From the IMG/VR virus record IMGVR_UViG_3300046373_000092, positions 1 to 64,000 of that record: DNA of 64,000 nt; one strand, 5' to 3'. Of the stretch, positions 287-63,336 are shown one piece after another. Positions within the stretch are counted from its first letter, which is position 1; each line of letters begins with the position of its first letter. Position numbers and translations under genes: made by a program. The DNA is from a virus. Below the pieces are notes generated by a model. It was not told where the DNA came from. It saw nothing but the letters and a program-made list of their open reading frames with translations, and ran no database searches.

Positions 287-445
287 CTATTTAAAAATTT
301 CTTGTAGTAGCTCAGATCTAAAAACAGACATCCGCACGGAGGGAAACTTTGGATTACAACCAATCCATGGAAAATCCAGCGAACTTCCTCGTGAACATAA
401 ATACTTTATATCTGCCATACATCTAATTGAATATTTATAATCCAC
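287..445 (-). CDS. EL-tail small protein (52 aa), last gene of the left minus operon
   Basis: It starts at a GTG that overlaps the TAG stop of the upstream membrane protein (TAGTG). The body is cysteine-containing and unrecognised. It ends in the tail VFRSELLQEIFK. No minus-strand gene follows it, so the tail here cannot be maintained as a ribosome binding site for a neighbour. The GTG start is inferred from the overlap, because the preceding Shine-Dalgarno is weak. Confidence 0.6.
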   Translation of the reverse strand: MDYKYSIRCMADIKYLCSRGSSLDFPWIGCNPKFPSVRMSVFRSELLQEIFK

Positions 446-925: not shown

Positions 926-1194
926 TTTATAAACTCCGATACATTCCATTGGATTCCGACTAAACGCCAATTGTTGTTAGCCTTCCATTTCAAATATTGT
1001 ACCACGAAACCTTTCTTACGTAAAGCATCAACTATACTTTCACACACTTTTTCTTCAACAAACAATTCTACAAATTCGTGCCCCAGCAAAGCGTTAAGCT
1101 CAATTAAACTTTCGAGTTGCTTTAAACTCGTAACCGGCATAGAGTCGTGGTATTTTTTGTAGAGATCAAGAGCCTTTGCTTTATTTATAGTCAT
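922..1194 (-). CDS. Unknown protein (90 aa)
   Basis: It begins MTINKAKALDLY at an ATG lying inside the 3' end of the upstream EL-tail gene. The Shine-Dalgarno AAAGGAATT is supplied by that gene's tail codons. The first half is mostly helical and rich in Leu and Glu, including SLKQLESLIELNALLGHEF. The second half is beta-like (GFVVQYLKWKANNNWRLVGI). It has no EL-tail and no family is recognised. Confidence 0.65.
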   Translation of the reverse strand: MTINKAKALDLYKKYHDSMPVTSLKQLESLIELNALLGHEFVELFVEEKVCESIVDALRKKGFVVQYLKWKANNNWRLVGIQWNVSEFIK

Positions 1195-1360
1195 TAAATA
1201 ATTCCTTTAGTAGTTCTGAGTAATGTGCGTCTATTCTAATTGCTGATTGATCCATGCCGTCCGAGTACCTAGTACCAGGTCTACTCATTAATCTACGGAA
1301 CCGCCGATGCTGAGTTGTATACAAGCTGGAAAAATACTCTGCTCGCTTATTTATTGCCAC
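1181..1360 (-). CDS. EL-tail small protein, MAINK subgroup (59 aa)
   Basis: The GTG start, followed by GCA ATA AAT AAG (MAINK), lies inside the previous gene's last codons, which read RGNK in the other frame. The body is rich in Arg (QHRRFRRLMSRPGTR). The tail is AIRIDAHYSELLKELF, with AAGGAATT as ribosome binding site for the gene at 1194. The overlap with that gene is 14 bases. Confidence 0.7.
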   Translation of the reverse strand: MAINKRAEYFSSLYTTQHRRFRRLMSRPGTRYSDGMDQSAIRIDAHYSELLKELFNDYK

Positions 1361-1559
1361 GAAATAACTCCTCCAATAACTCGGATTCTATCGCTCTATA
1401 GTTCACTACAAACAGTTCGCCTGTTAAAGCAGCTTGTTTCTTGGCGTCAGTGTAGAATAAATAGTCAAAAGTATAGGTTTCTCTTTTCATCGTTCTGATG
1501 GTTAACCAGTGCAAACTAACGTATTCAAATTGCTCTCTTGCTTTGCAACTAATTGCCAT
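1347..1559 (-). CDS. EL-tail small protein, MAIS subgroup (70 aa)
   Basis: The chosen start is the ATG opening MAISCKAREQF. It overlaps the upstream stop and has CAGGAACTT as ribosome binding site. A longer in-frame extension exists but lacks a binding site. The body includes KRETYTFDYLFYTDAKKQ. The tail is YRAIESELLEELFRGNK, and the final RGNK is dictated by the overlapping MAINK start of the next gene. Confidence 0.7.
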   Translation of the reverse strand: MAISCKAREQFEYVSLHWLTIRTMKRETYTFDYLFYTDAKKQAALTGELFVVNYRAIESELLEELFRGNK

Positions 1560-1716
1560 AAAGTTCCTGGATAATTTTTGATTTAGCAACAGAGAGCTTA
1601 ATCCAGTGAGTGCCGAAATCTCTCCTCTTACTCCATGTTATAAGCTGAATTGTATATTGACTCATATTGTTGCGATATAAGCCAATATTCTCAACTTGCA
1701 TCCATTTATCCTTCAT
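1549..1716 (-). CDS. EL-tail small protein (55 aa)
   Basis: It begins MKDKWMQVENIGLYRN at an ATG inside the last codons of the 270-residue protein upstream. The tail is LSVAKSKIIQELYGN. The CAGGAACTT of Q-E-L is the binding site for the next gene, whose ATG lies inside the tail. The function of the body is unknown. Confidence 0.65.
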   Translation of the reverse strand: MKDKWMQVENIGLYRNNMSQYTIQLITWSKRRDFGTHWIKLSVAKSKIIQELYGN

Positions 1717-2527: not shown

Positions 2528-2557
2528 AAAAAGAAAGGAACCCGTTTTAAGGGTTCC
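2528..2557 (-). terminator. Terminator or attenuator in the leader of the 1706-2518 gene
   Basis: The minus strand reads GGAACCC, a short loop, GGGTTCC, then TTTCTTTTT. This 7-bp GC-rich stem with a U tract lies between the promoter at 2601-2629 and the start codon at 2518. It either stops transcripts arriving from upstream or attenuates the local promoter. Confidence 0.7.
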
Positions 2558-2600
2558 CTGCGTATTCAAGACTCAACACGCTAAGCTGGAGGGTAATTAG

Positions 2601-2629
2601 ATTGTATCAGATTTAGTGCTCTGTGTCAA
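2601..2629 (-). promoter_or_regulatory. Sigma70-type promoter, minus strand
   Basis: TTGACA (2624-2629) and TACAAT (2601-2606) are separated by 17 bases, with TG in the extended -10 position. The -35 overlaps the stop of the upstream EL-tail gene. It drives the genes from 2518 leftwards. Confidence 0.75.
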
Positions 2630-2799
2630 GTAAAAAGTTCTTGGAGTATTAAAGATTCTAAACACACAACCGCCACTACGGGATTATCCGACAGATCCTT
2701 ATGGCATGCATAAGAGTCTAATAAAGGTGCATAGTACTTGGATTTGAAATACGTTCTAACATCTCTAACATCTATGAATATCCCATTTTTTTTACACAC
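2626..2799 (-). CDS. EL-tail small protein (57 aa)
   Basis: The GTG start overlaps the end of the two-TM protein (GTGTGTAA). The body begins MCKKNGIFIDVRDVRTYF. The tail is VVCLESLILQELFT. The next gene starts more than 100 bases downstream behind its own promoter and binding site, so this tail is kept without a coupled start codon. Confidence 0.65.
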   Translation of the reverse strand: MCKKNGIFIDVRDVRTYFKSKYYAPLLDSYACHKDLSDNPVVAVVCLESLILQELFT

Positions 2800-2989
2800 G
2801 AACTCTATCCCAAAGTCGGTCAGAAATTACAATCAAGAAAGGAGCTGCTATTAAAATAATAAAGGATGCAATAAATATCCAAGGATTATAGATAGGAGCG
2901 ACTATAGCAAAGAGCAGTAAGAACATACAGATGAAAGTCCATACAATCGCCATAGATACATTAAAAGCGTTAATCCAGTCACTATTCAT
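2792..2989 (-). CDS. Two-TM small membrane protein, holin candidate (65 aa)
   Basis: Two hydrophobic segments are visible, about residues 10-31 (AIVWTFICMFLLLFAIVAPIY) and 36-57 (WIFIASFIILIAAPFLIVIS). A charged C-terminus, DRLWDRVRV, follows. Its size, topology and place in the same operon as the M15 endolysin are compatible with a class II holin. The sequence gives no family-specific proof. GGGAG lies seven bases before the ATG. Confidence 0.6.
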   Translation of the reverse strand: MNSDWINAFNVSMAIVWTFICMFLLLFAIVAPIYNPWIFIASFIILIAAPFLIVISDRLWDRVRV

Positions 2990-3134
2990 AAAGCTCCCTC
3001 ACTATTTTAGACCGAGCAGACGCTATTCTTATTGCTAATTGGTAGCCGCTCTCTAATAACATGATGCGTTCATACCCCATATCATGGTGGTTGACATGAC
3101 CAAGCCAATGTAGTGGTACGTATTTATGTACCAC
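2982..3134 (-). CDS. EL-tail small protein (50 aa)
   Basis: The GTG start overlaps the last codons of the gene upstream (RGT in that frame). The body is His-rich (VPLHWLGHVNHHDMGYE). The tail is AIRIASARSKIVRELYE, and its AGGGAGCTT is the binding site for the two-TM protein. The overlap with that gene is eight bases. Confidence 0.65.
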   Translation of the reverse strand: MVHKYVPLHWLGHVNHHDMGYERIMLLESGYQLAIRIASARSKIVRELYE

Positions 3135-41638: not shown

Positions 41639-41813
41639 ATAGAAGTCCTCCAAATGCAAACAATTCTGCGCGAACAAGGTACATGCCGTCCCGCCTAAAA
41701 TCTTCAGCGTTCCTTTCATTATGGGTGGAGTAGTTCTGCCAGCAATCAGAATACTTATTTTTATGTGCGTATAGAAAGTGGGAGCGGGACATAAAAATCT
41801 TATAACATTTCAT
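41622..41813 (-). CDS. EL-tail small protein (63 aa)
   Basis: It begins MKCYKIFMSRSHFLYAHKNK at an ATG overlapping the upstream TGA. The body is Tyr, Asn and Arg-rich. The tail is LVRAELFAFGGLLYELLH, with GGAGGA encoding Gly-Gly and the downstream binding site. Confidence 0.6.
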   Translation of the reverse strand: MKCYKIFMSRSHFLYAHKNKYSDCWQNYSTHNERNAEDFRRDGMYLVRAELFAFGGLLYELLH

Positions 41814-41992
41814 TTGCAAAGTTCCCTAATAAGTTCCGATTTTAGAGTAGCTTCTTTTATAACGAGCCAAGATCCTCTATCTACTATTTTTCTATGTGAA
41901 TAGTTTAACACCAACATGTTATTCCAATTTCTTAAACTGTCCATTAAATTGTTTTTAGTAATTAGTCTATATCTTAATTTATCCTTCGACAT
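41810..41992 (-). CDS. EL-tail small protein (60 aa)
   Basis: MSKDKLRYRLITKNNLMDSL starts inside the end of the upstream gene (overlap 19 bases). The tail is WLVIKEATLKSELIRELCK, with AGGGAACTT as the next binding site and an ATGA overlap with the next start. Confidence 0.65.
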   Translation of the reverse strand: MSKDKLRYRLITKNNLMDSLRNWNNMLVLNYSHRKIVDRGSWLVIKEATLKSELIRELCK

Positions 41993-43360: not shown

Positions 43361-43780
43361 CTAAAACTCCAGTCCTAAGGTTAAGCCGATCTTCTTATCT
43401 GTCGTCGCCATTGCCCCGACCACAACATTACTGAAAACTCTCTTAGAAACTATAACACCGTAGTCACGCTGTGTCAAGTCATTAATTGGAACGTAAGCTA
43501 AAGCCTGTAGCGTCAATCCGACTCTGTTCTCCACCACTTTAGAAGACTCTTGTTTAGCCTCTACCACAGTGCGCGTGTCTTCTCTTTCGTGCTCAGTCTC
43601 AGTAATGGTGCCATCTGGTTTAGTGATCTTCTCTCTATAGACGACCTTAGTCTTAGCCTCTTCCTTTACATACTCTTTTTTGACTACTTCAACAGTCTTA
43701 GTTGGCTTTGTGAAATATCCAGCTCCAAAAGCTAAGCCTAGGGCTAATACAGAAAAGATAATTTTATTAGTTGTTGTCAT
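43361..43780 (-). CDS. Membrane-anchored coiled-coil protein, spanin-like topology (139 aa)
   Basis: An N-terminal hydrophobic segment (IIFSVLALGLAFGAGYF, about residues 7-23) precedes a highly charged region (VKKEYVKEEAKTKVVYREK) with T-E-T-E-H-E-R-E-D. A C-terminal beta-like domain (DYGVIVSKRVFSNVVVG) follows. The layout fits a periplasm-facing anchored protein such as an inner-membrane spanin, but no lysis partner is evident next to it. Confidence 0.55.
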   Translation of the reverse strand: MTTTNKIIFSVLALGLAFGAGYFTKPTKTVEVVKKEYVKEEAKTKVVYREKITKPDGTITETEHEREDTRTVVEAKQESSKVVENRVGLTLQALAYVPINDLTQRDYGVIVSKRVFSNVVVGAMATTDKKIGLTLGLEF

Positions 43781-43986
43781 GAGAATAATTCCTTAATTAA
43801 ATTGGAGTGTAGAACTTTGATATTCGCTACAAATATTCCATCGGAGGTAGAGTAATTATCGCTGTAATTTTTAGATTCGCTGTACGCCCTACCCGTGGGT
43901 GCTCCCACGTCTCTGCCCGTGTGATAGACTTGGAAATGCTCTAAGTAGAACCAGTTGAATTGTTTTTTATTCTTATTACTAATCAT
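43777..43986 (-). CDS. EL-tail small protein, MISNK subgroup (69 aa)
   Basis: It starts MISNKNKKQFNWFYLEHFQ, sharing the M-(A)-I-S-N-K-x4-F-x-W start of several members. It contains GAPTGR and a Ser/Tyr-rich stretch. The tail is FVANIKVLHSNLIKELFS. It is the first gene after a terminator hairpin at 43995-44021. Confidence 0.68.
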   Translation of the reverse strand: MISNKNKKQFNWFYLEHFQVYHTGRDVGAPTGRAYSESKNYSDNYSTSDGIFVANIKVLHSNLIKELFS

Positions 43987-45373: not shown

Positions 45374-45765
45374 TTCTTTTTCCCTTTTTTAACCTTCTTT
45401 AGTATACTCTTTTTGTTGGGTCGCGTCAAGACCTTTTTTCGACTTCTTGCTAATTCTCTTTCTTCTCGCGTCTTTGCGTCGTGATGCGTTTTGCAGATTA
45501 CTTGGAGCCCAAACACGTCACAAAACAATCTGAGGATAAAGCTGTCGAATCCCTGCCACCCCACGTTAGGATCTACCGCTGGCTCTATATGATCTACTTG
45601 CACGTCCTTGGCACGATGTAACACGTCAGGACCGCAAATGGCACAATGATACAGTCCGCGCTCTACACGAGCAGCTCGCAATGCGTCACCTCGTGCGGGA
45701 GAACGCAGCCAAGCGCGGCGGAGAGTTGAGACGCAGTAGGATTTTAGTTTAGAATCGATAGCCAT
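45370..45765 (-). CDS. HNH endonuclease (131 aa)
   Basis: This is a phage-type HNH nuclease: C41-x-x-C44 (YHCAICG), the VDHIEP core with His59, W-x-x-F-D-S-F-I-x-R-L-F-C, and C91-x-x-H94 followed by H-x-A-K-T. The C-terminus is very basic. It starts MAIDSK at a TAATG overlap with the upstream EL-tail gene. Such nucleases can nick DNA at packaging or act as mobile genes. Confidence 0.85.
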   Translation of the reverse strand: MAIDSKLKSYCVSTLRRAWLRSPARGDALRAARVERGLYHCAICGPDVLHRAKDVQVDHIEPAVDPNVGWQGFDSFILRLFCDVFGLQVICKTHHDAKTREERELARSRKKVLTRPNKKSILKKVKKGKKK

Positions 45766-45953
45766 TATTTTTTCCTAGTTAGTTCTTTAATTAATTTTGA
45801 GTTTATAGCCCCTTTACAGATATACCATTGATTGGAAGATATATGAAATGACCCATATTTTCCAAACTTCAAAGGACCGAGGCGGGTTAATTCTAGAAGA
45901 TAGTACATGTTTAACCACGTGAAAGAGGGCTTATCTTTATTGCTAATAGCCAT
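45765..45953 (-). CDS. EL-tail small protein, MAISNK subgroup (62 aa)
   Basis: The start MAISNKDKPSFTWLNMYYLL shows the subgroup pattern with F11 and W13. The body is aromatic and Leu-rich. The tail is WYICKGAINSKLIKELTRKK. The start lies inside the last codons of the upstream member. Confidence 0.7.
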   Translation of the reverse strand: MAISNKDKPSFTWLNMYYLLELTRLGPLKFGKYGSFHISSNQWYICKGAINSKLIKELTRKK

Positions 45954-46128
45954 ATAACTCTCTTAGTAGCTCTGATTTATAGACAGATTCGGAGATAACA
46001 AAACAGTCTTCAAGACACTCATATTTTGAAGATTTATAATTATTAATAAAGCTGTGAGATATTCCTTCCGATAATATTTCCTGATTAGTCCAGTCAAATT
46101 TAAAGTCCTTTTTATTGCTAATTGCCAC
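45943..46128 (-). CDS. EL-tail small protein, MAISNK subgroup (61 aa)
   Basis: The start is MAISNKKDFKFDWTNQEILS and the tail is FVISESVYKSELLRELYGY. The start codon (GTG) is formed by the CGTGGCAATT of the upstream gene's R-G-N codons. Confidence 0.72.
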   Translation of the reverse strand: MAISNKKDFKFDWTNQEILSEGISHSFINNYKSSKYECLEDCFVISESVYKSELLRELYGY

Positions 46129-46276
46129 GGAACAACTCCTGAAAAATGTCAGTGCCTAATAGCTGTATTTTGTGGGTTCCTCTACTGTGAGACAGATAGG
46201 CTATCTCATCACCTCCGTATCTAGAGTGAAGTGCTATGTTGAATTGCATAAATTTAGGAGAATAAATAAATTTCAC
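46118..46276 (-). CDS. EL-tail small protein (52 aa)
   Basis: A GTG start (MKFIYSPKFMQFNIALHS) overlaps the upstream TGA and is preceded by AAGGAACT. The body contains RYGGDEIAYLSHSRG. The tail is THKIQLLGTDIFQELFRGN, whose final R-G-N codons contain the next member's GTG start. Confidence 0.66.
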   Translation of the reverse strand: MKFIYSPKFMQFNIALHSRYGGDEIAYLSHSRGTHKIQLLGTDIFQELFRGN

Positions 46277-46449
46277 GATAATAGTTCCTTGTAAACGGCA
46301 GATCTGAACACATCTAAGTGGAGCACATAGCGAGTTCTCCAAGGACGAGTCCTAGCATAGTCGTAAGTTCCAGACTGGATTAGACCACTGTTAAAAGCTT
46401 GAATTGAATGAACAGGAAAAAACCAAGCATCAGTCTTGTTTATCGCCAT
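46273..46449 (-). CDS. EL-tail small protein, MAINK subgroup (58 aa)
   Basis: The start MAINKTDAWFFPVHSIQAF is preceded by GGAAAACGAAA. The body ends in an Arg-rich segment (ARTRPWRTR). The tail is YVLHLDVFRSAVYKELLS. Confidence 0.7.
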   Translation of the reverse strand: MAINKTDAWFFPVHSIQAFNSGLIQSGTYDYARTRPWRTRYVLHLDVFRSAVYKELLS

Positions 46450-46591
46450 TTTCGTTTTCCTTAAAAAAGTCAATCATTTCTTTAGAAAAGTAATCGAGGA
46501 AGATTTCTGTTTCTAAGTCCAGCTCGTCGTCCTGAGGGATCTTGTGGATCATTTTAATTTTAGCGATTAGTTTTTTCTTAAGCTCTTCCAT
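46430..46591 (-). CDS. Small helical protein without EL-tail (53 aa)
   Basis: MEELKKKLIAKIKMIHKIPQ is a basic helix, followed by an acidic second half (DDELDLETEIFLDYFSKEMI). The ATG overlaps the end of the upstream member's tail codons. It may be a helical binding protein. No family is recognised. Confidence 0.6.
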   Translation of the reverse strand: MEELKKKLIAKIKMIHKIPQDDELDLETEIFLDYFSKEMIDFFKENENGDKQD

Positions 46592-46775
46592 ATAGCTCCT
46601 CTAGTAGTGTAGAATATATTACTCGGTGATTTAAAATTATGAATTCATTTTTATACCAGAAAAGCTCGGAAACCGCCTCTTCAAATGTGTAAGATCCGAC
46701 CTTGTAATCTAAATCCAGCAGCCACTCTGCATACATCCAATCAAAAGTATCTGTGTCTTTATTACTTATCGCCAT
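46578..46775 (-). CDS. EL-tail small protein, MAISNK subgroup (65 aa)
   Basis: The start MAISNKDTDTFDWMYAEWLL again has F11 and W13. The tail is FIILNHRVIYSTLLEELYGRA, with GAGGAGCT as binding site for the gene starting at 46591. Confidence 0.72.
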   Translation of the reverse strand: MAISNKDTDTFDWMYAEWLLDLDYKVGSYTFEEAVSELFWYKNEFIILNHRVIYSTLLEELYGRA

Positions 46776-46956
46776 ACAATTCCTTAAAAATTGGAGTCCT
46801 CAATGTTGCGTAGCGAACTATGAATGTCGGAGGAGTGTGGTGAGTTCCAATTCTATAATGATCCTTTATCTCCTCAAAACTGCCCCGAGCTGGGTGAAGG
46901 GTCCATCCGCCATACCCTTTGTAAAAAAATCTATGTTGAAGCTCCGGTCTTTTCAC
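46762..46956 (-). CDS. EL-tail small protein, LHPxxG subgroup (64 aa)
   Basis: The second of two in-frame GTGs is chosen because it gives MKRPELQHRFFYKGYGGW, parallel to the paralogue at 47132-47317. Shared motifs are W-x-LHP-x-x-G, EIK-x-x-Y and FIVR. The tail is FIVRYATLRTPIFKELYGDK. Confidence 0.7.
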   Translation of the reverse strand: MKRPELQHRFFYKGYGGWTLHPARGSFEEIKDHYRIGTHHTPPTFIVRYATLRTPIFKELYGDK

Positions 46957-47135
46957 AACCACAATTCCTTAAATAAATCACTGTGAACAGACTTTAGTCT
47001 GTAGATGTAAACGGGATATACCCAAGGAGTGTATTTATTAATTTTGTAGTATTGTAACCTAGCATGAGATCCATCTATCAATTTATGAAAAGCTTGTTTG
47101 CCAAAATGTCCCAAGACAAATCTATGCCTTTTCAT
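46953..47135 (-). CDS. EL-tail small protein (60 aa)
   Basis: The body is basic and aromatic (MKRHRFVLGHFGKQAFHKL). The tail is VYIYRLKSVHSDLFKELWL, and AAGGAATT of K-E-L is the binding site of the next gene. It lies between the two LHPxxG paralogues but does not share their body. Confidence 0.68.
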   Translation of the reverse strand: MKRHRFVLGHFGKQAFHKLIDGSHARLQYYKINKYTPWVYPVYIYRLKSVHSDLFKELWL

Positions 47136-47317
47136 TTAAATAACTCCGCAAATATTTCAGCTCTACAGACGCCGGCTCTAACAATGAATGCTGAAACAAA
47201 TGTTGAATAATGAGGATATAATTCTTTAATTTCTTGGTATTTTCCGGAATGAGGATGAAGTCGCCACTTGTTGTAATTATAAAAATAAAGTTTATGAATT
47301 AAGTTAGGTTTTTTCAT
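47132..47317 (-). CDS. EL-tail small protein, LHPxxG subgroup (61 aa)
   Basis: MKKPNLIHKLYFYNYNKW is followed by LHPHSG, QEIKELYPHY and the tail FIVRAGVCRAEIFAELFK. It aligns along its length with 46762-46956, so the two are duplicates with a different gene inserted between them. Confidence 0.7.
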   Translation of the reverse strand: MKKPNLIHKLYFYNYNKWRLHPHSGKYQEIKELYPHYSTFVSAFIVRAGVCRAEIFAELFK

Positions 47318-47793: not shown

Positions 47794-48182
47794 TTCTTAG
47801 CCTTAACCTTAATACAGTAGCCATCCTGAAATATTACAGGTAAATCTCTATCTATCATTATGTCATAAAAGCGTTTGTGCGTCAAGTTATCTTTTAATAA
47901 TTGCACTCTATGCTCGTTACTGCCGCAAAGTATTAGGCTATGTCTAACGGGGCAAATTAAGCCGCTGGGAGACAGAAGTAGGGTGTTGGTAGCTAAGGTT
48001 AGGTTCGGGCTGCCAGATAGGCTAATGGTGAAATTACTGGAATATAGGGGGATGATGGATTTTACTGTCGCCTCAGTAATTGTATTGTCTTCGTCCAAAA
48101 CATTAATTTTGTCGCCAATGCTTATTTTAGTAATAGAGGTAGCCACTTTGTTTTTCCAAACTACATAATTACTTAATATCAT
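47790..48182 (-). CDS. Unknown beta-rich protein, faintly Hint-like (130 aa)
   Basis: ITKISIGDKINVLDEDNTI followed by a V-K-S-I strand and NLTLATNTLLLSPSGL resemble the strands of Hint domains that lack the N-terminal Cys. The C-terminus is helical then strand-like (LPVIFQDGYCIKV). The resemblance is weak and structure prediction would decide. It overlaps both neighbours. Confidence 0.5.
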   Translation of the reverse strand: MILSNYVVWKNKVATSITKISIGDKINVLDEDNTITEATVKSIIPLYSSNFTISLSGSPNLTLATNTLLLSPSGLICPVRHSLILCGSNEHRVQLLKDNLTHKRFYDIMIDRDLPVIFQDGYCIKVKAKK

Positions 48183-48354
48183 AAAGTGCCTGGATTATTT
48201 TAGACTTTACAGACTTTTCGTTTACAAACTTAGGATTAGCCATAAATCCATTTTGCCAGTAATCTGCAGAGTAGTCTAAGCTGAAGTTTAGAAATATATG
48301 CATGCGCACAGTTTCGAGGCTATCAAAAAATATCCCACGAGTTGAGCGTTTCAT
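48169..48354 (-). CDS. EL-tail small protein, A-L variant (61 aa)
   Basis: MKRSTRGIFFDSLETVRMH begins a basic-aromatic body. The tail is KFVNEKSVKSKIIQALYDIK, with Ala in place of Glu. It is still preceded by S-K-I-I. The start overlaps the previous stop (ATGA). Confidence 0.62.
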   Translation of the reverse strand: MKRSTRGIFFDSLETVRMHIFLNFSLDYSADYWQNGFMANPKFVNEKSVKSKIIQALYDIK

Positions 48355-48557
48355 TTTAGCAGACCCTCAATAACAGAACTCCGGAAAACTCTAACATCTA
48401 TTGCGGTATCATGGGTGGAATAGGGATCGTAAACTTCACGAAGAGGCACGAATTCAGATATCTCGTGTTCTAAATAATCTCTATCCTTTAAATATCTATA
48501 AATAAAACTTTCCTCGTTATCTACCCAAAAATATTTATTATCGAGAATACGTTTCAT
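48351..48557 (-). CDS. EL-tail small protein, G-L variant (68 aa)
   Basis: MKRILDNKYFWVDNEESFIY has alternating aromatic and acidic residues. The tail is AIDVRVFRSSVIEGLLK, with Gly replacing the second acidic position of E-L. GAGGGT serves as the downstream binding site. Confidence 0.62.
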   Translation of the reverse strand: MKRILDNKYFWVDNEESFIYRYLKDRDYLEHEISEFVPLREVYDPYSTHDTAIDVRVFRSSVIEGLLK

Positions 48558-48733
48558 TTTACAATTCCTATAGTAGGAAACAGTTCTTGTATCAGGGCAG
48601 AATTAATAGTGTTTTGACAAGCTAAAAATATATCTTCGGGATAGAGAGGTAAACTGAAATCATACCTAGGATGCCCGCCAGTAATGAGTACTTCATCTGA
48701 AAAAAATGTTTTGTATACTAGATAATATTTCAT
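48554..48733 (-). CDS. EL-tail small protein (59 aa)
   Basis: MKYYLVYKTFFSDEVLITGG starts at an ATG inside the previous dNMP kinase stop. The tail is NTINSALIQELFPTIGIVK; it runs nine residues past E-L to an ATGA overlap with the next start. Confidence 0.65.
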   Translation of the reverse strand: MKYYLVYKTFFSDEVLITGGHPRYDFSLPLYPEDIFLACQNTINSALIQELFPTIGIVK

Positions 48734-49362
48734 GATCTTTTGAATCTCTCAGAATGCCAAAGTTTAACGTCTAACTCCAGTCTAGTTAAAGTATCGTCAT
48801 TGTTAATAATAACGTCATAGTCTTTATCTTCCCCTATAGACAGTTCAGAGACGTGTCCCGACCCTTCGTATCCTGCACGCTTAATTCTGATCAGAGTAGC
48901 CCCTAGAGACTTTAGCGCGGCTCTTTCGTTGGGAAATCTAGCGTCAGTAATTACAATGTGCCCTTCCGTTTTTTTAACAACGTCTAGCGCCAAGTTAACA
49001 AGAAAGTCTTCGGCGATACAGTTACGTAACAGCTCTGTTCCGATAAACTGCAGTATCTCTCGGGGGGTGTTAAAAAACTTGTCTCTGCCATGCTGCATTA
49101 GTAGCTGGGTCTGCATTTCGTCAGCATTAACTAACTTAGCCAAAATCTCCACATTTTCAATTCTCATAATTACTGGAGAATTAAAGCTAAGGTCTTTAAG
49201 CGCATCATCTGTAAAATGGATTAGGGGGAGCTGCATACACTCGGCAGAAAGCTTACGCAGAGGATCTGCAAAGGCTACTCTTTGATAATTGAAGTGACGT
49301 TTTAATATATCAGCGACGACATCTTTACCTGAGCGTTTAGGAGCAGAGAGTACGATAATCAT
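48730..49362 (-). CDS. Deoxynucleoside monophosphate kinase (210 aa)
   Basis: It phosphorylates dNMPs for phage DNA synthesis. The P-loop SAPKRSGKDVVAD is at residues 6-18, followed by the conserved FADPLRKLS. TPREILQFIGTELLR is at about 99-113 and the VITDARFPNE segment near 140 carries the conserved R-x-P-N-E pattern. Length and motifs match phage dNMP kinases (T4 gene 1-type). It sits between two EL-tail genes, overlapping both. Confidence 0.9.
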   Translation of the reverse strand: MIIVLSAPKRSGKDVVADILKRHFNYQRVAFADPLRKLSAECMQLPLIHFTDDALKDLSFNSPVIMRIENVEILAKLVNADEMQTQLLMQHGRDKFFNTPREILQFIGTELLRNCIAEDFLVNLALDVVKKTEGHIVITDARFPNERAALKSLGATLIRIKRAGYEGSGHVSELSIGEDKDYDVIINNDDTLTRLELDVKLWHSERFKRS

Positions 49363-49541
49363 AAGTATAATTCCTTTAGTAGTTGTGATTTGAAGATTTT
49401 ATTATTAAGAATAACCGACCCGTGAAACGGGTTTTTGCAGAAAGAGTAGGGCATATTCCTATAGATAGATGATGCAATTGCATCACTTAAATAGAGGAAT
49501 GCGTAGTAGTCGAACTGGGATTTGTTTTTTCCGCTAATCAT
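49359..49541 (-). CDS. EL-tail small protein, MISGK subgroup (60 aa)
   Basis: MISGKNKSQFDYYAFLYLSD keeps the M-I-S-x-K-N-K-x-Q-F-x-aromatic start. The tail is SVILNNKIFKSQLLKELYL, with AAGGAATT as binding site for the dNMP kinase. Confidence 0.7.
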   Translation of the reverse strand: MISGKNKSQFDYYAFLYLSDAIASSIYRNMPYSFCKNPFHGSVILNNKIFKSQLLKELYL

Positions 49542-49723
49542 GACAATAGCTCCTTCATAATTGAGGATTGGAATACGTCAATTAGAGTTATTCTCCAATT
49601 TCTAGCCTTAGCAATATCCGGAGTGTGTATGCACAAATCTAAATTTCTAGTTGCAGCTTTTAAGTCTGAGTACGTTAGGGGGCTATCGGAGCTATACCCC
49701 CTCTTAGTATTATCTATCGCCAC
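49538..49723 (-). CDS. EL-tail small protein, MAIDN subgroup (61 aa)
   Basis: The start is a GTG formed in the CGTGGCGAT of the upstream gene's R-G-D codons, giving MAIDNTKRGYSSD. A longer frame to 49753 overlaps the previous tail. The tail is WRITLIDVFQSSIMKELLS. Confidence 0.68.
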   Translation of the reverse strand: MAIDNTKRGYSSDSPLTYSDLKAATRNLDLCIHTPDIAKARNWRITLIDVFQSSIMKELLS

Positions 49724-49916
49724 GAAATAGCTCCTGGATAATCTTAGATTCAAGCATGTCGTATAGCCAAATACTGAATCCGTATTCTTCTGCCATTAAA
49801 GAGTCGTGTCTTTGATGTATCCCATACCTCGAACTGTCCAAAGCTCTTTTAAAAACATCCATTGAACCGCGCTTAAATCTATAGGTGTAGCCTAGTTTGT
49901 TTTTATTTATTGCCAT
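49710..49916 (-). CDS. EL-tail small protein, MAINK subgroup (68 aa)
   Basis: MAINKNKLGYTYRFKRGSMD starts inside the S-N-G-N-K codons of the previous gene. The tail is FSIWLYDMLESKIIQELFR followed by G-D-R, with R-G-D created by the overlap. Confidence 0.7.
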   Translation of the reverse strand: MAINKNKLGYTYRFKRGSMDVFKRALDSSRYGIHQRHDSLMAEEYGFSIWLYDMLESKIIQELFRGDR

Positions 49917-50115
49917 TAGATGCCTCAAATAATTCTAAAAATATCTCAGATTGAAAGTATTCATTGCGAACAAAATATCCATATTGCCCTCCCGTATTCG
50001 GAGTGTGACACCCATCAAATGGATTATCGGAATACTCGAGATAATCAGAGTAGAAATCTTTAGTCTCAGAGAAATTATAAAATCTACAGCCCAGCAAGTC
50101 TTTTCTTGTCGCCAT
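49903..50115 (-). CDS. EL-tail small protein (70 aa)
   Basis: MATRKDLLGCRFYNFSETK begins the body, which includes DNPFDGCHTPNTGG. The tail is FVRNEYFQSEIFLELFEAS followed by N-G-N-K. Confidence 0.68.
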   Translation of the reverse strand: MATRKDLLGCRFYNFSETKDFYSDYLEYSDNPFDGCHTPNTGGQYGYFVRNEYFQSEIFLELFEASNGNK

Positions 50116-50116
50116 A

Positions 50117-50293
50117 CTAGTCCTTAAATAAAGCTATGAATAATTCTGAGTTGAGTGTTTCATTGCAAAAAAATCGGTCTTTGTTTATAATCCCAGGGTC
50201 ACTCGACAGCCATCGACCGTAAGAGCTTCCGACATAATTCTTTAGACAGTACGGCAGTACCGCAAACTTACTAAATACAAATCCTTGCTTCAT
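50117..50293 (-). CDS. EL-tail small protein, A-L variant (58 aa)
   Basis: MKQGFVFSKFAVLPYCLKNY starts at an ATG overlapping the stop of the zincin gene. The tail is RFFCNETLNSELFIALFKD. TTTAAGGAC supplies the binding site for the next start at 50115. Confidence 0.66.
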   Translation of the reverse strand: MKQGFVFSKFAVLPYCLKNYVGSSYGRWLSSDPGIINKDRFFCNETLNSELFIALFKD

Positions 50294-50647: not shown

Positions 50648-50677
50648 ATTGTAGCACAGTGTCATTGCTAATTGCAA
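50648..50677 (-). promoter_or_regulatory. Sigma70-type promoter, TGTGC-TACAAT type
   Basis: TTGCAA (50672-50677) and TACAAT (50648-50653) are 18 bases apart with the shared TGTGC extended -10. The -35 overlaps the stop codon region of the upstream EL-tail gene. Confidence 0.55.
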
Positions 50678-50841
50678 CAAAGTTCTTGAATAAGTTCTGA
50701 TTTAATACAAGACTCAGATAGTGCATATTTCCAATGATGCTTCACAAAGTGGAAGTCATATTGGTATTCCAACCCATTAATGAGGGGTAGTTCATATAAA
50801 ATATCGTCCACTCCAATATACAATCTCTTTTTGTCTATCAC
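50668..50841 (-). CDS. EL-tail small protein (57 aa)
   Basis: A GTG start (MIDKKRLYIGVDDILYELPL) overlaps the TGA of the exonuclease (GTGA). The tail is YALSESCIKSELIQELCCN. The next gene starts more than 30 bases downstream behind its own promoter and binding site, so the tail is not needed there as a binding site. Confidence 0.68.
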   Translation of the reverse strand: MIDKKRLYIGVDDILYELPLINGLEYQYDFHFVKHHWKYALSESCIKSELIQELCCN

Positions 50842-51776: not shown

Positions 51777-52121
51777 TTACTCCTGTAATTCCCATTCGTT
51801 ATGGATTGTGCATATTTCTTTGGGAACATATTCCATTTTTCCCATATATCTAAATTTGTTAAATACTCTTTTCGGATTAGTATCATATTCGCCAATTATT
51901 AAATAACAATCGCTGTCAGCAGCAGAATCTACTAAATAAGTTTTGCCGAACATTTCATTTTTAACACGGTCATAGCGGAGGGCGACAAGCGCCTCCGGTT
52001 TAATTTTATCGTAGACATCTTGACTGATTACCAACTCTCCGCTATCTCCGATATAACTGTTTGGAAAAAGATTCAATGCGTCACGAAGGGTGGCAACTGT
52101 TATTTTTCTTAGCTTAGGCAT
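51777..52121 (-). CDS. Unknown protein (114 aa)
   Basis: TVATLRDALNLFPNSYIGD starts a helix followed by beta-like segments (CYLIIGEYDT, FNKFRYMGKMEYVPKEICT). It ends WELQE. It starts inside the end of the upstream EL-tail gene (overlap 13 bases). No domain is recognised. Confidence 0.6.
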   Translation of the reverse strand: MPKLRKITVATLRDALNLFPNSYIGDSGELVISQDVYDKIKPEALVALRYDRVKNEMFGKTYLVDSAADSDCYLIIGEYDTNPKRVFNKFRYMGKMEYVPKEICTIHNEWELQE

Positions 52122-52297
52122 AATTCCCTCACAATTTCAGAATAGAAAACATCTACGTCTATATAAATACCAACAATTCTCTTATAAGAATAAGAATTAC
52201 CCCAAGTACACTGCTTTACAGGCTTGTAGCTAGCTATACTGATTATAGAAGCGCCAGTAGAAACGGCAACGTAATATTTATCGTCAAATCTCTTCAT
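52109..52297 (-). CDS. EL-tail small protein (62 aa)
   Basis: MKRFDDKYYVAVSTGASIIS begins a small beta-like body. The tail is VGIYIDVDVFYSEIVRELC followed by L-S. The binding site AGGGAATT for the next gene is inside the tail. Confidence 0.68.
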   Translation of the reverse strand: MKRFDDKYYVAVSTGASIISIASYKPVKQCTWGNSYSYKRIVGIYIDVDVFYSEIVRELCLS

Positions 52298-55808: not shown

Positions 55809-56065
55809 GATGGACCCAAAGGCAAATCCTTTCTTCGAGGACGAGATTCAGCGTCCTGCGCTCTAGGGGCGGCAGACACTAGATAGCCGCTCTGAACTAA
55901 CTCTTGTTCAAGTTCCTCGTGTAATAATGTGCGTTTATGAGGATTTTTTTCATACGCTACAAATTCTTTAACCTCACATACGAATTCAATAAACTCCACC
56001 CCAGCCATCATAGCCATAAAAAAAAGAACCGCGTATCCAACCCATTGAGCTATTTCATTTAACAT
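55805..56065 (-). CDS. Single-TM protein with helical tail (86 aa)
   Basis: One transmembrane segment (WVGYAVLFFMAMMAGVEF) lies at residues 8-25. It is followed by a charged helix (KRTLLHEELEQELVQSGY) and a Pro/Arg-rich end. The start lies just inside the upstream EL-tail gene. The function is unknown. Confidence 0.6.
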   Translation of the reverse strand: MLNEIAQWVGYAVLFFMAMMAGVEFIEFVCEVKEFVAYEKNPHKRTLLHEELEQELVQSGYLVSAAPRAQDAESRPRRKDLPLGPS

Positions 56066-56220
56066 AAAATCTCCTGTAAGATTCTAGAATTATATGCTGA
56101 AGGTTTCAGGAATAGGGATTTGGGGCATTCGTAATCCCAATGCACCCCTAAAGCCCAATACTTAATCCTACCTCGAAGAGACCAATAGTTTTCTGCCCAG
56201 CCAGACGTATCAATTTTCAT
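56059..56220 (-). CDS. EL-tail small protein, E-I variant (53 aa)
   Basis: MKIDTSGWAENYWSLRGRIK begins a Trp-rich body. The tail is SLFLKPSAYNSRILQEILC, and CAGGAGAT is the next binding site. The start overlaps the upstream zincin stop. Confidence 0.65.
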   Translation of the reverse strand: MKIDTSGWAENYWSLRGRIKYWALGVHWDYECPKSLFLKPSAYNSRILQEILC

Positions 56221-57393: not shown

Positions 57394-59332
57394 TATCTGC
57401 CTTTTTCTTATTTGCCTTCTGTACTCTCAATTCCTCTAAATTAATCTTCTCTATAGCCTCTAACTCTCGGATACTTCCAGTTACTCCATCCCAGGCAAAA
57501 TCGAGAGAAAACATAGCTCCATGTCGATTTTTTAGACAATCGAGGGAATAGTACTTATCATTTTCGAATGTTCTAGGGCTGGCTCCAGGTCTTGAAACCC
57601 AGAGCATAGCATTCGATAGCTCAGCAAGTGCTCCAGACCCCTTAAAAGCAGCGTATGTTTCCGCAGGTTCATCCATTCTTTGGTTAGCTTTGTTTGGCTG
57701 TCCAAGAAATACAACACACTTACGAAGTGCTGAAGCTATCTCTTTTAGCCCCTGAACAGAGTACATTGAGCGTTGAGTAGGGTCGCTGTAGTCGGACCTA
57801 ATCAAGTCTAAGTAGTCTACTAAAATAAATTTAATGTCTGTGCCAAGAGCTTGTTCTGTTCTGATAATTCTATCTTTCATCTCTTCGATGGACATTCCGG
57901 CGGAACGAACAAAATTAACGTTGCTGTAATTTTCCGCAAGACAGAGTCTGAATTTCTCTCTCCAAGACGGATCTTCCATTCTAGTATAAACTTCCTTAGC
58001 AGAAATTTTATAATGCTTTTGAATTAGCTTTTGATAAACATCTTCTAAAGACATGTCGAAAGAAAAGAACATACTGTTAACAGCTTGCTTAGAAGTATTG
58101 TTTAGTAGCTGAAGAGATAGCGAGGTCTTCCCAGAACCAGGGCTACCTCCAATTGCATACACTCTTCCTACTTGCGCTTCCAGAGCTGCATCCAAAGATT
58201 TAATCCCGAATTCCAATCTGTTTTTGCCGATATTAGCAGCGTAGTCCTCAAAAATGTTTCCAACTTGTTCTACTGAAATAACATCTTCTTTTGACTTCAC
58301 AATGTGTTTAGCTGGGATGCTTGCCGCTAACGACATCAGTAGTTCGTCTGACTTCTCAGAGTAAGTGCCGCCGTTCCAGCTCGGACTGTAAACTTGACGA
58401 ATAATGTTACTCCAAATCTCAGACTTTGGAAATTTATCACACCCCATTAGTAAGGATTGTTTTTCCATTGCTGATTTAATTAAGTAATACGCCTTATTCT
58501 CGTCATATCCAAGGTTACGATAAGTAGAGGCTAAGATCATTCCTGCGTGAGAACGAGATCCAGCCGGGAAGAAACCCAACTCTACTAGCCATTTAGCTGG
58601 AGATAAGTCTGTGGGCTTTTTAGTCCAATCAACGTCATTGATGTTAATTACTGTAACTTCTTTTAGGGGCTTCACAGAGGGAGTTTTTGCCTTTAAATCC
58701 TTCATTAGCGTAGTAAGCTTAACTGGAGCCCATGCGTCTTTAATAGCTGAATACTCCAGCTCTTGCTTTGCTACTTCCGCAATTTCAGTTGCCGATAGTG
58801 TGCGAAGATCCTCAACTCCCAACGGATATTTAAATAATCCGGATTTCTGGTGTTTTGTGAGGGGCAATCTAAAAATGCGAGTGGCGTTGTATATTTTAGA
58901 ATCTACAGTGGTCAGTCCTTCTGCAATGTTCATGCAAATATTTTTTGTTTCGGATGGCGTTAAACGTTCTCCGTCAAGTTGCACAGACACTTCAAATCCT
59001 TTATTTCCGCTAAAGAAAATACGAATGTTCTCTTCTGTGTAGCCCTGAGACTGAAGCCTCTTAACAAGCTCTACCGCGTCGATACGAGCCTCTTCAACGT
59101 GCTTCTCACTGTCGAAGTCCCATGTTAACTTGTCAGTCGTTACGTCGGTCATCCCAGCTACAGATCCAGTAGTTTGGAATGTTTTGAATTGGGCATCGTT
59201 AAAATAGAATAAGGAAGTGTAGGCATCCTTGTTTTTGTTTAGTGATTTATACACGCCAGTAAGGTCGTTGCCAATTACTGGAATTAAAGTACCTTTATCT
59301 GCTAAGTCTTTGCAAAGTCTGATGTAATCCAT
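57380..59332 (-). CDS. Primase-helicase fusion (AEP primase plus DnaB-type helicase), 650 aa
   Basis: The N-terminal half is an archaeo-eukaryotic-type primase: D72-x-D74 in LTWDFDSEK, then FFSGNKGFEV at 107-115 and IYNATRIFRLP near 142. The usual histidine of the S-G-x-K-G-F-H motif is Glu114 here. The C-terminal half is a RecA/DnaB helicase with Walker A GGSPGSGKTS near 395 and a Walker B region IKFILVDYLDLIR. It would unwind and prime the fork for the polymerase at 53336. The start overlaps the upstream EL-tail gene. Confidence 0.82.
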   Translation of the reverse strand: MDYIRLCKDLADKGTLIPVIGNDLTGVYKSLNKNKDAYTSLFYFNDAQFKTFQTTGSVAGMTDVTTDKLTWDFDSEKHVEEARIDAVELVKRLQSQGYTEENIRIFFSGNKGFEVSVQLDGERLTPSETKNICMNIAEGLTTVDSKIYNATRIFRLPLTKHQKSGLFKYPLGVEDLRTLSATEIAEVAKQELEYSAIKDAWAPVKLTTLMKDLKAKTPSVKPLKEVTVININDVDWTKKPTDLSPAKWLVELGFFPAGSRSHAGMILASTYRNLGYDENKAYYLIKSAMEKQSLLMGCDKFPKSEIWSNIIRQVYSPSWNGGTYSEKSDELLMSLAASIPAKHIVKSKEDVISVEQVGNIFEDYAANIGKNRLEFGIKSLDAALEAQVGRVYAIGGSPGSGKTSLSLQLLNNTSKQAVNSMFFSFDMSLEDVYQKLIQKHYKISAKEVYTRMEDPSWREKFRLCLAENYSNVNFVRSAGMSIEEMKDRIIRTEQALGTDIKFILVDYLDLIRSDYSDPTQRSMYSVQGLKEIASALRKCVVFLGQPNKANQRMDEPAETYAAFKGSGALAELSNAMLWVSRPGASPRTFENDKYYSLDCLKNRHGAMFSLDFAWDGVTGSIRELEAIEKINLEELRVQKANKKKADNDLF

Positions 59333-59520
59333 TTTATTTTATCCTCTAGTAATGTTTGAAATATGTCTGATTGAAAAATTCTCTTAGTAATAACTGTATA
59401 ATTTGTTCTGTCTCCGAACCATCGGTGAGCTTTGGTAAACTGGATGCCCTCTCGGTGCCCAATCTCCAGCAAAGTTTCTAAAAAATTAGGATAGATCAGC
59501 TCATGTGGATTTCTTTTCAT
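59302..59520 (-). CDS. EL-tail family variant (72 aa)
   Basis: MKRNPHELIYPNFLETLLEI begins it. The tail YTVITKRIFQSDIFQTLLED keeps V-I-x-x-x-I-F-x-S-D-I-F but has T-L, and the frame runs on 15 residues into the primase start. The start lies in the tail of the next upstream member. Confidence 0.62.
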   Translation of the reverse strand: MKRNPHELIYPNFLETLLEIGHREGIQFTKAHRWFGDRTNYTVITKRIFQSDIFQTLLEDKIKWITSDFAKT

Positions 59521-59710
59521 TTAGTAATTCCTGAAAAATTTCAGTAAAGAATACTCTTTTGCAAATAGCGGCTCTGTCCCAAACGCGATAATTATGAGTC
59601 GAGAATGTCCACCCACTCCACCAAGTAGTTTTTTTAACTAAAACTCTGTCCAAGAAGTCGGAATTAACTTTATCCCCGTCTTTTAATTTATAACCGGTGT
59701 ATTTCAGCAC
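59501..59710 (-). CDS. EL-tail small protein (69 aa)
   Basis: A GTG start gives MLKYTGYKLKDGDKVNSDFL behind GGAGAATT. The tail is AAICKRVFFTEIFQELLNEK followed by K-S-T, and CAGGAATT is the next binding site. Its K-R-V-F-x-T/S-x-I-F-Q pattern is close to that of 59302-59520, so the two are probable duplicates. Confidence 0.66.
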   Translation of the reverse strand: MLKYTGYKLKDGDKVNSDFLDRVLVKKTTWWSGWTFSTHNYRVWDRAAICKRVFFTEIFQELLNEKKST

Positions 59711-60005: not shown

Positions 60006-61178
60006 CTAAGTTCCATACTCGTTAATGAAGATCTTTCTTCCCCAAGGAATTCCGTCCCAAGTGTGCTTTCCGATAATTGTCCAAAGAGTGGGCAGATTGC
60101 TTTTGGGAACTTCCTCGTAGAAGTCTCCGTCGGTAAAACAGACAATAACATCAGCTCCCAATTCTTCGGCTTTCTTAAATCCCGGAGACATTACTGTCCC
60201 TCCACGACCCTGAATTTCAGGCTTCATTCTAGGATTAAACTCTCTCACGTTCTGAACATCACTGTCACACTCAATAAGAGTAATTTGCATGTTGGGGTAG
60301 AACTGTTGAAGTTTAGCCATTTCGCTCCAGCCCTGGGCTAGATATTCATCTGACATAGACCCTGAAGTATCGAGTAGGAAAGCTAAGTGCATCTCCCATT
60401 CTTTCTTTTTACCGGCAAACATCGTCCCGTAACGTCTGTTACGCTTCTTGCGAGAGCCTGTTCTAGTAAAGTTAACTGCATTGTTTACAAATTTTCTCAG
60501 CTCAGACTTCCAATTGATTTTAGAAGCAAAGAGCTGGTCCAAGATTACTGAAAGACCGTTAGACATGTTCCCAGCTCCTCCAGCAGCATCCGAAGCCTTT
60601 TTAGCGGCTTTCTTTACGAGGTGCTCTTTGTAGGCTTGAGAGATATCTTTTCCATCTGATTCTTCCCAAACGTCGTGATCATCAAATTGATCTCCAGCTC
60701 CAGACTCATCAAACTTGTCCTGACATTTTTCGATGATGCGAGCATAGTAGTCGAATGACTGTAGAGCTTGGATAGAAGACGGTTCCACGAACTCAGAACA
60801 AGCCTCGCGGAACCTAGCAAGAGTGACGCCGCCGATTTCATCAACCGACTCCTCAATTCCTTCCATTTGATTAATAGTACAATCCATCGCAATGTTTTTT
60901 TGCTTGTGAGTAAGCTTGTCGAAATCCATGCGATCTTTAGAGAGGGTGCAATGATTTAGAATCAAGTGAAGACACTCATGTTTTAAAATGTCTTCTTGCT
61001 GCTTATTAGTCTTAGAATCGAACCATTCGCTGTTAACATACAGATTGATTTGATCTGTTACACTTACTCCCAGAGTAGGGCATTTAGTAGTGTAAACACG
61101 ACGACAACTTTGCAAAATTGAAGCGTAGAAAATATTTTGAGACATAATAAGTCTTGAGATAGCTGATTCTAATGACAT
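60006..61178 (-). CDS. VWA-like metallopeptidase-type protein (390 aa)
   Basis: The start MSLESAISRL has GAGGGTG upstream. Residues 63-76 hold DILKHECLHLIL, an H-E-C-L-H zincin motif, followed by a region with MDCTINQMEG. The C-terminus is a von Willebrand A-like domain with LLDTSGSMSDEY near 267 (MIDAS D-x-S-x-S). This is the layout of the DUF2201-type partner of MoxR ATPases. The two would remodel a protein complex, but the substrate is unknown. Confidence 0.82.
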   Translation of the reverse strand: MSLESAISRLIMSQNIFYASILQSCRRVYTTKCPTLGVSVTDQINLYVNSEWFDSKTNKQQEDILKHECLHLILNHCTLSKDRMDFDKLTHKQKNIAMDCTINQMEGIEESVDEIGGVTLARFREACSEFVEPSSIQALQSFDYYARIIEKCQDKFDESGAGDQFDDHDVWEESDGKDISQAYKEHLVKKAAKKASDAAGGAGNMSNGLSVILDQLFASKINWKSELRKFVNNAVNFTRTGSRKKRNRRYGTMFAGKKKEWEMHLAFLLDTSGSMSDEYLAQGWSEMAKLQQFYPNMQITLIECDSDVQNVREFNPRMKPEIQGRGGTVMSPGFKKAEELGADVIVCFTDGDFYEEVPKSNLPTLWTIIGKHTWDGIPWGRKIFINEYGT

Positions 61179-61191
61179 AAACACCCTCATG

Positions 61192-61314
61192 TTATTTATA
61201 GAGACAGTTGCAGTGCTTGCAATTTTTAAGATCCTTGAACCAACGAAATTTACCGTCGTGCGAATGGAGCCCAAAAAAGCAAGCTATTAATTGAATCAAT
61301 TTATCCTGATCCAC
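61192..61314 (-). CDS. Cys/His-rich minipeptide between the MoxR and VWA genes (40 aa)
   Basis: A GTG start overlaps the stop of the ATPase gene (TAGTG). The sequence MDQDKLIQLIACFFGLHSHD is followed by C32-x-x-C35-x-C37 near the end (NCKHCNC). It may be a tiny zinc-binding adaptor. It is short, but it fills the gap between two functionally linked genes exactly. Confidence 0.5.
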   Translation of the reverse strand: MDQDKLIQLIACFFGLHSHDGKFRWFKDLKNCKHCNCLYK

Positions 61315-62423
61315 TACTTGCTTTCTTCAGTAAGCGAAGATTGAACTTTCTCAACAACTCCAGCAGCCTTTTGTTGCTTCACAAGGTTTAGCAATCTGTC
61401 GTTCTTATTTAAGAATCCTTCGATAACGATGTCGTCATTAATAAAGTTTTCAACTTTGATTAAGTTAAACAAATTCGCAATAGCCAAGTCACCTGGAATA
61501 GCTAGTAGGAATTCATTTACCTGGGCAACGTTGTGTTCAGTGATGATTGTTGTTTCCAACGCTAGAAGCGCCATAAGCTCTTCTGAAGCAAGAGAAAGCA
61601 TCGGCATGTTGTGCTGAGCTACTAGATCCTTAACATTGTTAAAGTCGCGCAACATAGCTTCAACGTCAATTTTCTTAGGCTTTTCACGAACGTATGACTC
61701 GAAAGCTGCCGCAGCTTCAGATCCTACCATTCCTTGCCCAATTTCGAATCTAATAGACTCCGGCAATCCTAAATTGATTAGGGATTGAAATCTAATTGCA
61801 GAACGTCTAGACGGCTTGATGTCTGCGTAGCTTAGAGGTGCTAAGTCCTGCTCGATCATGTTCTTGTGTTCTTGTAGGAACGAAATGAAGTCTCCGTTAG
61901 TTGTAGACTTTGCGTACGAGATGAACTCTTCTTTAGAAGGTTCGAAGTTGATGTGGCAAAATCTGTCTGAGAAAGCTGGGTCAGTGAGGTCTAGTACCGA
62001 GTAGTCCCCGTTTGGTGGGTTCATCGCTGCGATGACCTTAGTATTTACAAGCTTGTGCGGTCCAAGTTGAGAGCCCGTCTCTACTGCCTGGAAAATAGCT
62101 TGGATCAAATCTTTATGTGATCTATTTACTTCGTCGAAAAATAGGATGGTTTCTTGTTCCTCAGAACCATTTAAAAACTCAGGAGCAGCAAAAACAGTGT
62201 TGATAGCTCTGCCCGCGTCATTTCTAACGAAGTCAGCTAGACCAATTAAGTCACCTGCGTCAGAAAGTTGCCCAAGACGGATAACTACTAGACGAGATCC
62301 CCTAGCCTGCGCAATTTGCTCTACTACAGTAGTCTTTCCTACGCCGTGGTACCCGCGAAGTAATGGTGTGATTTTTGCTTTGAAAAGAAAGTCTACTGCT
62401 GTTGTAATGTCTGAAATCTTCAT
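61314..62423 (-). CDS. MoxR-type AAA+ ATPase (369 aa)
   Basis: Walker A GYHGVGKTTVVEQ is at 24-36, Walker B ETILFFDEVNR at about 91-101, and the sensor segment AAMNPPNGDYSVLDL is near 130. An acidic, helical C-terminal lid follows (VKNLVAQHNMPM-like). It works with the VWA protein encoded next, as in MoxR-VWA chaperone pairs. The gene has its own promoter at 62471-62499. Confidence 0.9.
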   Translation of the reverse strand: MKISDITTAVDFLFKAKITPLLRGYHGVGKTTVVEQIAQARGSRLVVIRLGQLSDAGDLIGLADFVRNDAGRAINTVFAAPEFLNGSEEQETILFFDEVNRSHKDLIQAIFQAVETGSQLGPHKLVNTKVIAAMNPPNGDYSVLDLTDPAFSDRFCHINFEPSKEEFISYAKSTTNGDFISFLQEHKNMIEQDLAPLSYADIKPSRRSAIRFQSLINLGLPESIRFEIGQGMVGSEAAAAFESYVREKPKKIDVEAMLRDFNNVKDLVAQHNMPMLSLASEELMALLALETTIITEHNVAQVNEFLLAIPGDLAIANLFNLIKVENFINDDIVIEGFLNKNDRLLNLVKQQKAAGVVEKVQSSLTEESK

Positions 62424-63002: not shown

Positions 63003-63006
63003 CTAG

Positions 63007-63334: not shown

Positions 63335-63336
63335 CT

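Follow-up and report, generated by a model that had tools for sequence, protein, structure and literature searches.

A short C-terminal tail recurs on many small proteins of one phage group, to which it is restricted; it is constrained at the protein level, occurs on many types of protein body and is overlaid, at synonymous positions, by the ribosome binding site of the following gene. The tail appears to be a portable motif selected as protein, with S or T at position 0, L or I at +2, usually E at +5, L at +6 and a hydrophobic residue at +7, and would be carried by many small accessory proteins whose bodies mostly differ and whose genes seem to have been inserted between core genes. Where the next gene overlaps, the synonymous codons of +4 and +5 are tuned, such that the same stretch serves as the Shine-Dalgarno sequence of that gene. 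We give a probability of about 50% to the reading that small accessory proteins bear the tail as a portable tag for docking or sorting, read in trans by a putative receptor. In this capacity the tail may bring them to one shared partner, of phage or host origin, as a sorting, loading or turnover tag, and the small proteins would be delivered to that partner during infection.

The window analysed here covers 64 kb of the virus record G000 (82,065 bases), and its genes are open reading frame (ORF) calls. The tail family of this 82-kb phage has about 56 members, all small ORFs: the family HMM gave 56 matches in the record, 0 matches in 13 related phage records and, on a second set of 50 records, three weak matches to the tail only. 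The members within the window are collected in Table 1, together with the neighbouring features.

Table 1. Tail genes and neighbouring features in the window
Feature	Coordinates	Strand	Remarks
Uncoupled tail member	287..445	-	ends SELLQEIFK, then stop; last gene before a terminator and a convergent gene
Array of three coupled tail genes	1181..1716	-	1181-1360, 1347-1559, 1549-1716
Terminator-like hairpin and T-run	2535..2559	-	predicted; downstream of the 2601-2629 promoter
Sigma-70-like promoter, putative	2601..2629	-	TTGACA-17-TACAAT; 11/12 matches, TG before -10; consensus match only
Uncoupled tail member	2626..2799	-	ends C-L-E-S-L-I-L-Q-E-L-F-T (SLILQELFT, then stop)
Coupled tail gene	2982..3134	-	
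Coupled tail gene	41810..41992	-	
Coupled tail gene	43777..43986	-	
Array of eight tail genes	45765..47317	-	45765, 45943, 46118, 46273, 46578, 46762, 46953, 47132
Three tail genes	48169..48733	-	
Five tail genes	49359..50293	-	between two core genes
Uncoupled tail member	50668..50841	-	ends SELIQELCCN, then stop; next gene 33 nt on, with its own GAGG
Coupled tail gene	52109..52297	-	2-nt spacing
Coupled tail gene	56059..56220	-	
Two tail genes	59302..59710	-	longer C-terminal extension past the tail in 59302-59520
DUF2201 metallopeptidase and VWA-like protein, usual MoxR partner	60006..61274	-	candidate tail partner
MoxR-like AAA+ ATPase	61314..62423	-	candidate tail partner
Uncoupled tail member	62489..62665	-	ends SALIKELFSLDK, then stop; MKIEIGD N-terminus recognisable independently of the tail
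Array with MKxKxGD N-termini	62662..63830	-	two members frameshift-disrupted (62662-62838, 63007-63168)
Uncoupled tail member	63451..63630	-	ends SDILEALLPQSPK, then stop (A at +5); MKLKQG N-terminus recognisable

Tail genes of the window

The core of the tail, S0-x-[IL]-[ILFV]-[KQR]-E-L-[FLY], was found by regular expression within the last 20 residues in 45 of the 122 tiled small ORFs of this phage, versus 0 of 362 in six related phages. Its tails extend up to about 8 residues beyond +7, and a free C-terminus at a fixed distance is therefore not essential in G000. A matrix built from coupled tails separates 12 uncoupled members from 479 control ORFs, and with only S0 to +3 in use (+4 to +7 masked) it does so at p = 3e-9, in a test that is not independent because the uncoupled members had been recognised partly by their tails. 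A non-circular check is provided by the N-termini: among 16 ORFs selected only by an MKxKxG-like N-terminus, 15 carry the tail, including the uncoupled genes at 62489, 63451 and 66192, and the sixteenth is frameshifted. An HMM test of the uncoupled members by their bodies only was weak, the bodies being too divergent.

The original prediction cited five ORFs whose tails have no coupled start behind them. ORF lists and translations bear out all five on the minus strand, each ending S-x-[IL]-[IL]-x-x-[LI]. The individual endings that it quoted are also correct, and only its register fails, for 63451-63630, in which A-L aligns with the E-L of the other members and the E falls one position upstream. 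Downstream gaps, a hairpin and a promoter confirm that none of the five has a start coupled to its tail. Thus, 287-445 runs into a hairpin and a convergent gene; the gap after 62489-62665 is 66 nt, and that after 63451-63630 is about 117 nt with the next start taken at 63334 by homology of its N-terminus. For 2626-2799, the tail codons are CAA GAA CTT, which hold no Shine-Dalgarno sequence, and this ORF outscores all 479 control small ORFs in a matrix trained on other phages. The separate promoter claimed for the gene after it was located as well, the 11/12-match site beginning in the stop codon of the ORF; as a consensus match only, this putative promoter would drive that gene. The near-consensus promoter is followed by the hairpin at 2535-2559 before the next gene (minus strand), an arrangement that might form an attenuator.

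Tail genes overlap the next gene (NTGA overlaps) far more often than other small genes do (39/57 vs 63/236, p = 8e-9), and given this strong association the link of the tail to coupling is not incidental. In the array at 45765..47317 the starts of the next genes lie within the tail codons. In other members the extra codons past the tail carry the Shine-Dalgarno sequence instead, as at 48554, 49903, 50117 and 80115, and also at 45765; the E-L codons of 48554-48733 are CAA GAA CTG with the Shine-Dalgarno sequence of the next gene further downstream, and at 49903 and 50117 it stands after the E-L codons, not in them. A core-gene pair separated by five tail genes in G000 has a 26-bp gap in the related phage G001, and a second pair, with eight tail genes between its members in G000, has a gap of 481 bp there. 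It may be that a gene bringing its own coupling site could insert upstream of another without harming the translation of the latter. Two ORFs of the array at 62662..63830, both on the minus strand, look frameshift-broken: 62662-62838 has an MKIKVGD-type start in another frame that is soon stopped, and 63007-63168 has lost its tail residues and retained the Shine-Dalgarno DNA.

The amino acids and the binding site

A member was termed coupled when its +5 codon lies 4-14 nt upstream of the hand-assigned next start, which yielded 40 coupled and 13 uncoupled members; later tests used 12 uncoupled members, as 52109, with its 2-nt spacing, is better treated as coupled. That the E-L codons double as the Shine-Dalgarno sequence of the next gene had been raised as a way to explain the motif away, and in the coupled members this dual use is real and visible at synonymous positions. 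The K, Q or E codon at +4 ends in G in 25/25 coupled members vs 1/9 uncoupled ones (Fisher p = 5e-7), on a genome background of 33-39% G-ending codons for K and Q, and E at +5 is encoded by GAG in 21/33 vs 1/10 (p = 0.004).

The loss of conservation that an artefact would predict for members with no coupled gene was not seen among the 13 uncoupled members, all of which retain S0, [IL] at +2 and L or I at +6 (13/13 each). E at +5 persists in 10/13 of them and is the least constrained main position once a member is uncoupled; by comparison with the 13/13 of S and [IL], the binding site accounts for some of its conservation. In the uncoupled members the amino acids thus persist and the Shine-Dalgarno bases do not, such that the motif belongs to the protein and the Shine-Dalgarno sequence is superimposed on it at synonymous positions. 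The residues S-x-[IL]-[IL], which the original prediction held not to be dictated by a binding site, indeed lie upstream of the Shine-Dalgarno sequence (S0 to +3) and are kept where there is no coupling.

The comparison of synonymous and non-synonymous positions that had been proposed as a check was carried out on G000 paralogues and on orthologues from the sister phages, the G000 family having no orthologues of its own. The proportions are Nei-Gojobori values over all pairs, and are descriptive, given the saturation of pS and the non-independence of the pairs. The uncoupled G000 members have a pS of 0.69 and a pN of 0.17 at S0, +2 and +6, and a pS of 0.72 and a pN of 0.65 over the eight residues upstream. 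Among sister orthologues, the last eight codons give a pS of 0.72 and a pN of 0.16, and the bodies a pS of 0.67 and a pN of 0.36. Conservation is accordingly not confined to GGAG-like bases, and the free drift of S-x-[IL]-[IL] that was to refute the idea did not appear. Tail serines are split between TCN and AGY codons roughly as in the background, and constraint acts on the amino acids of the tail.

Tails in related phages

Relatives were found by DNA polymerase and helicase searches. Six of them (G001, G002, G005, G006, G015 and G048) form a tail-less set with common replication genes and a comparable rate of NTGA overlap, in which 615 genes contain 2 strict tails. Twelve records (G014, G016-G022 and G064-G067), several of them near-identical or partial, form a tail-bearing sister set whose DNA polymerase, where the gene is covered, is mostly 52-57% identical to that of G000. 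In these records 108 proteins (715 tiled-ORF-sized comparisons) end [ST]-x-[LIVM]-x-x-[EQGAKD]-[LIVMF]-x-COOH. The sister motif, [ST]-x-L-x-x-E-L-φ, stops one residue after the L, and uncoupled sister tails also end exactly there.

A well-covered sister phage has about twenty tailed, otherwise mostly unrelated proteins. Removal of near-duplicates leaves 63 non-redundant tails, on bodies that BLAST groups into 31 clusters, a count in which one cluster joins two body types and several may be remotely related to one another. Among the bearers are a 99-aa protein (KKTGLLKELE) whose N-terminus has a hydrophobic segment, helical-looking proteins of 46-47 aa (KKTSLGKELF) and 59 aa (SSSLGRELG), many barrel-like proteins (LSSLExELL), a 143-aa protein (VTSLEIELT), a 91-aa protein (NTSLGRELF) and a 116-aa protein. 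Many sister bodies look like one KOW/SH3-like fold, and some clusters may therefore be distantly related and have their tail by inheritance. The 143-aa protein (MGTRALIHVKDGRK..., e.g. L145:1499-1930) occurs in G064 and its relatives, and its homologues in a Vibrio phage and a Pseudoalteromonas phage stop before the tail, a comparison that concerns this one protein family.

Tail scores are bimodal in the sister genomes, nearly all unlisted tails scoring above about 8-12 and most other genes below 0. With the matrix of sister tails, the G000 family stands out (Mann-Whitney p = 4e-23) and the other small genes of G000 do not, and when the profiles of the G000 family and of the barrel-like sister family are aligned, the only columns that match are ten, namely the tail. 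One sister, G019 (L152), departs from the others at +5, where its four recognisable tails carry G, A, G or V in place of E. This hints at a coordinated replacement, on a small number of tails whose +5 codons retain the initial G that a binding site needs.

Searches beyond these records were made at several levels. A DNA pattern for SSLExEL-ATGA hit seven viral contigs, four of them already in the set and one more with tails. A nucleotide search of phage records gave no match for G000; tblastn with 23 joined G000 members against 50,697 phage records returned only background (E ~10), and with 15 joined sister proteins no match among phage records. In an alignment-based collection search the full G000 family was too divergent and a tight subfamily led to nothing that was confirmed, and bacterial genome contigs searched for a host identified none. 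The G000 family has no Pfam match at 0.1 and only isolated single-member PHROG and PADLOC matches, and the sister family only isolated weak matches in family HMM searches. No description of the motif was found in the literature on phage C-terminal tags, and no Pfam and no convincing PHROG or PADLOC family or paper matches the tail proteins.

Structure, competing readings and minor observations

AlphaFold2 models from family alignments, of moderate confidence, give a G000 member three strands, with the tail in a C-terminal helix (mean pLDDT 79, helix ~87-90), and a sister member five strands and a C-terminal helix (mean pLDDT 74), with a pLDDT of roughly 76-90 in the tail block across both. The tail is thus predicted to form a short helix that ends the protein or nearly so, and the Ser at its start would fit an N-cap. 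Foldseek likens the sister model to KOW/SH3-like domains such as the Spt5/NusG KOW (probability >0.9 for several, E ~0.1) and found no match for the G000 model. These matches, the three strands and helix of the G000 model and the location of all members within one phage group would suit an origin by shared ancestry, in which a small beta-barrel is closed by the tail as its C-terminal helix, and the needs of folding preserve this helix in a paralogous family that has expanded and evolves fast, with the Shine-Dalgarno overlay being secondary. We regard this as rather unlikely. Tails also occur on the helical-looking 46- and 59-aa bodies and on the 91- and 116-aa proteins, the tagged 143-aa protein has tail-less homologues, and a helix whose role is to close the fold would not have to keep to exactly one residue before the stop in some 30 clusters. 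The KOW/SH3-like family itself (Spt5, NusG, ribosomal L24 type), a weakly predicted fold for many of the tagged sister bodies, does not include such tails.

A translation module, whereby the tail codons are the Shine-Dalgarno sequence and spacer of the next gene, or the nascent tail peptide aids termination-reinitiation, would agree with the strong enrichment of NTGA overlaps, the preference for xxG and GAG in coupled members and the next start codons inside tail codons. Coupling through a Shine-Dalgarno sequence inside the upstream gene is a known arrangement, and is statistically demonstrated in the coupled members, yet it does not account for S, +2 and +6 or for the uncoupled members, which retain S, [IL] and L with the Shine-Dalgarno sequence lost. 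Since S0 to +3 lie upstream of that sequence, the six relatives with comparable overlap rates have almost no tails, and the motif-to-stop distance varies in G000, which ill suits a termination-stalling peptide, we judge this reading quite improbable. The possibility that the tails mark recombination junctions or the ends of recently copied DNA draws on the tail-gene arrays between core genes; it was rejected as barely credible, being largely refuted by the codon diversity of the tails, in which synonymous sites are saturated (pS ~0.7, as in the flanks) and Ser is encoded by TCN as well as AGY near background. Known C-terminal degrons, of the ssrA type and others, are short C-terminal hydrophobic signals, which the tail resembles in its short hydrophobic C-terminus on small, mostly early-region proteins; it differs in being genome-encoded on many proteins and not LAA-like. 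As a degron, the tail would limit the lifetime of early accessory proteins and be read by a host protease or by the phage MoxR/metallopeptidase pair, a reading that we find very doubtful. In a comparison of gene content, MoxR and DUF2201-VWA are the clearest genes that are common to tail-bearing genomes and nearly absent from tail-less ones: the pair is present in G000, G064, G066 and G020, the other tail-bearing records being fragments, and weakly in one of the six tail-less genomes, G006, whose homologue is 25-28% identical and which has no tails, counter to a role in reading them. MoxR-VWA pairs are known in jumbo phages, and a role in virion assembly is proposed for them there, which also speaks against turnover (PMC7824862). 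The same kind of gene pair, MoxR-vWA-metallopeptidase, adjoins tail genes here, and no link to C-terminal tails is drawn in the passages on the jumbo-phage pairs that were consulted. The pair is a lead, not evidence, as a candidate partner of the tail.

The portable docking motif finds its nearest likeness in the encapsulin cargo loading peptides, C-terminal docking peptides on unrelated proteins (PMC7355545). The likeness lies in a short C-terminal peptide common to unrelated proteins, and the encapsulin peptide is sufficient to dock to the shell. The phage tail differs in its motif, in the many more tagged proteins per genome, in the Shine-Dalgarno overlay and in the dispersal of the tagged genes through the early/replication region and not beside a shell gene. 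More tentatively, a whole phage clade may possess an address-tag system, in which several unrelated folds would be represented among the 20 to 50 small accessory proteins of each genome that bear the same helical tag for one receptor, with the tag coevolving with that receptor. A shared motif would give many tiny phage genes of unknown function a common handle, and one pull-down with the tail could reveal the partner and thus the process served by dozens of unknown proteins. The tail also offers a clear example from nature of one DNA stretch that is both protein motif and ribosome binding site, with layers that are separable by means of coupled vs uncoupled copies.

Further tail-like sequences were noted in the part of the G000 record outside the window. 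The ORF at 81152-81382 (plus strand; L002 17253-17483) ends LQSQLITALID, and a short tail-like fragment at 78380-78478 (minus strand), in a gene-poor stretch, is possibly a remnant. At 73120-73410 (minus strand; L002 9221-9511), a 96-aa protein that is not of the family ends SSKILELLQKQK and scores high in the sister-phage tail matrix; its homologues occur in tail-less phages as well.
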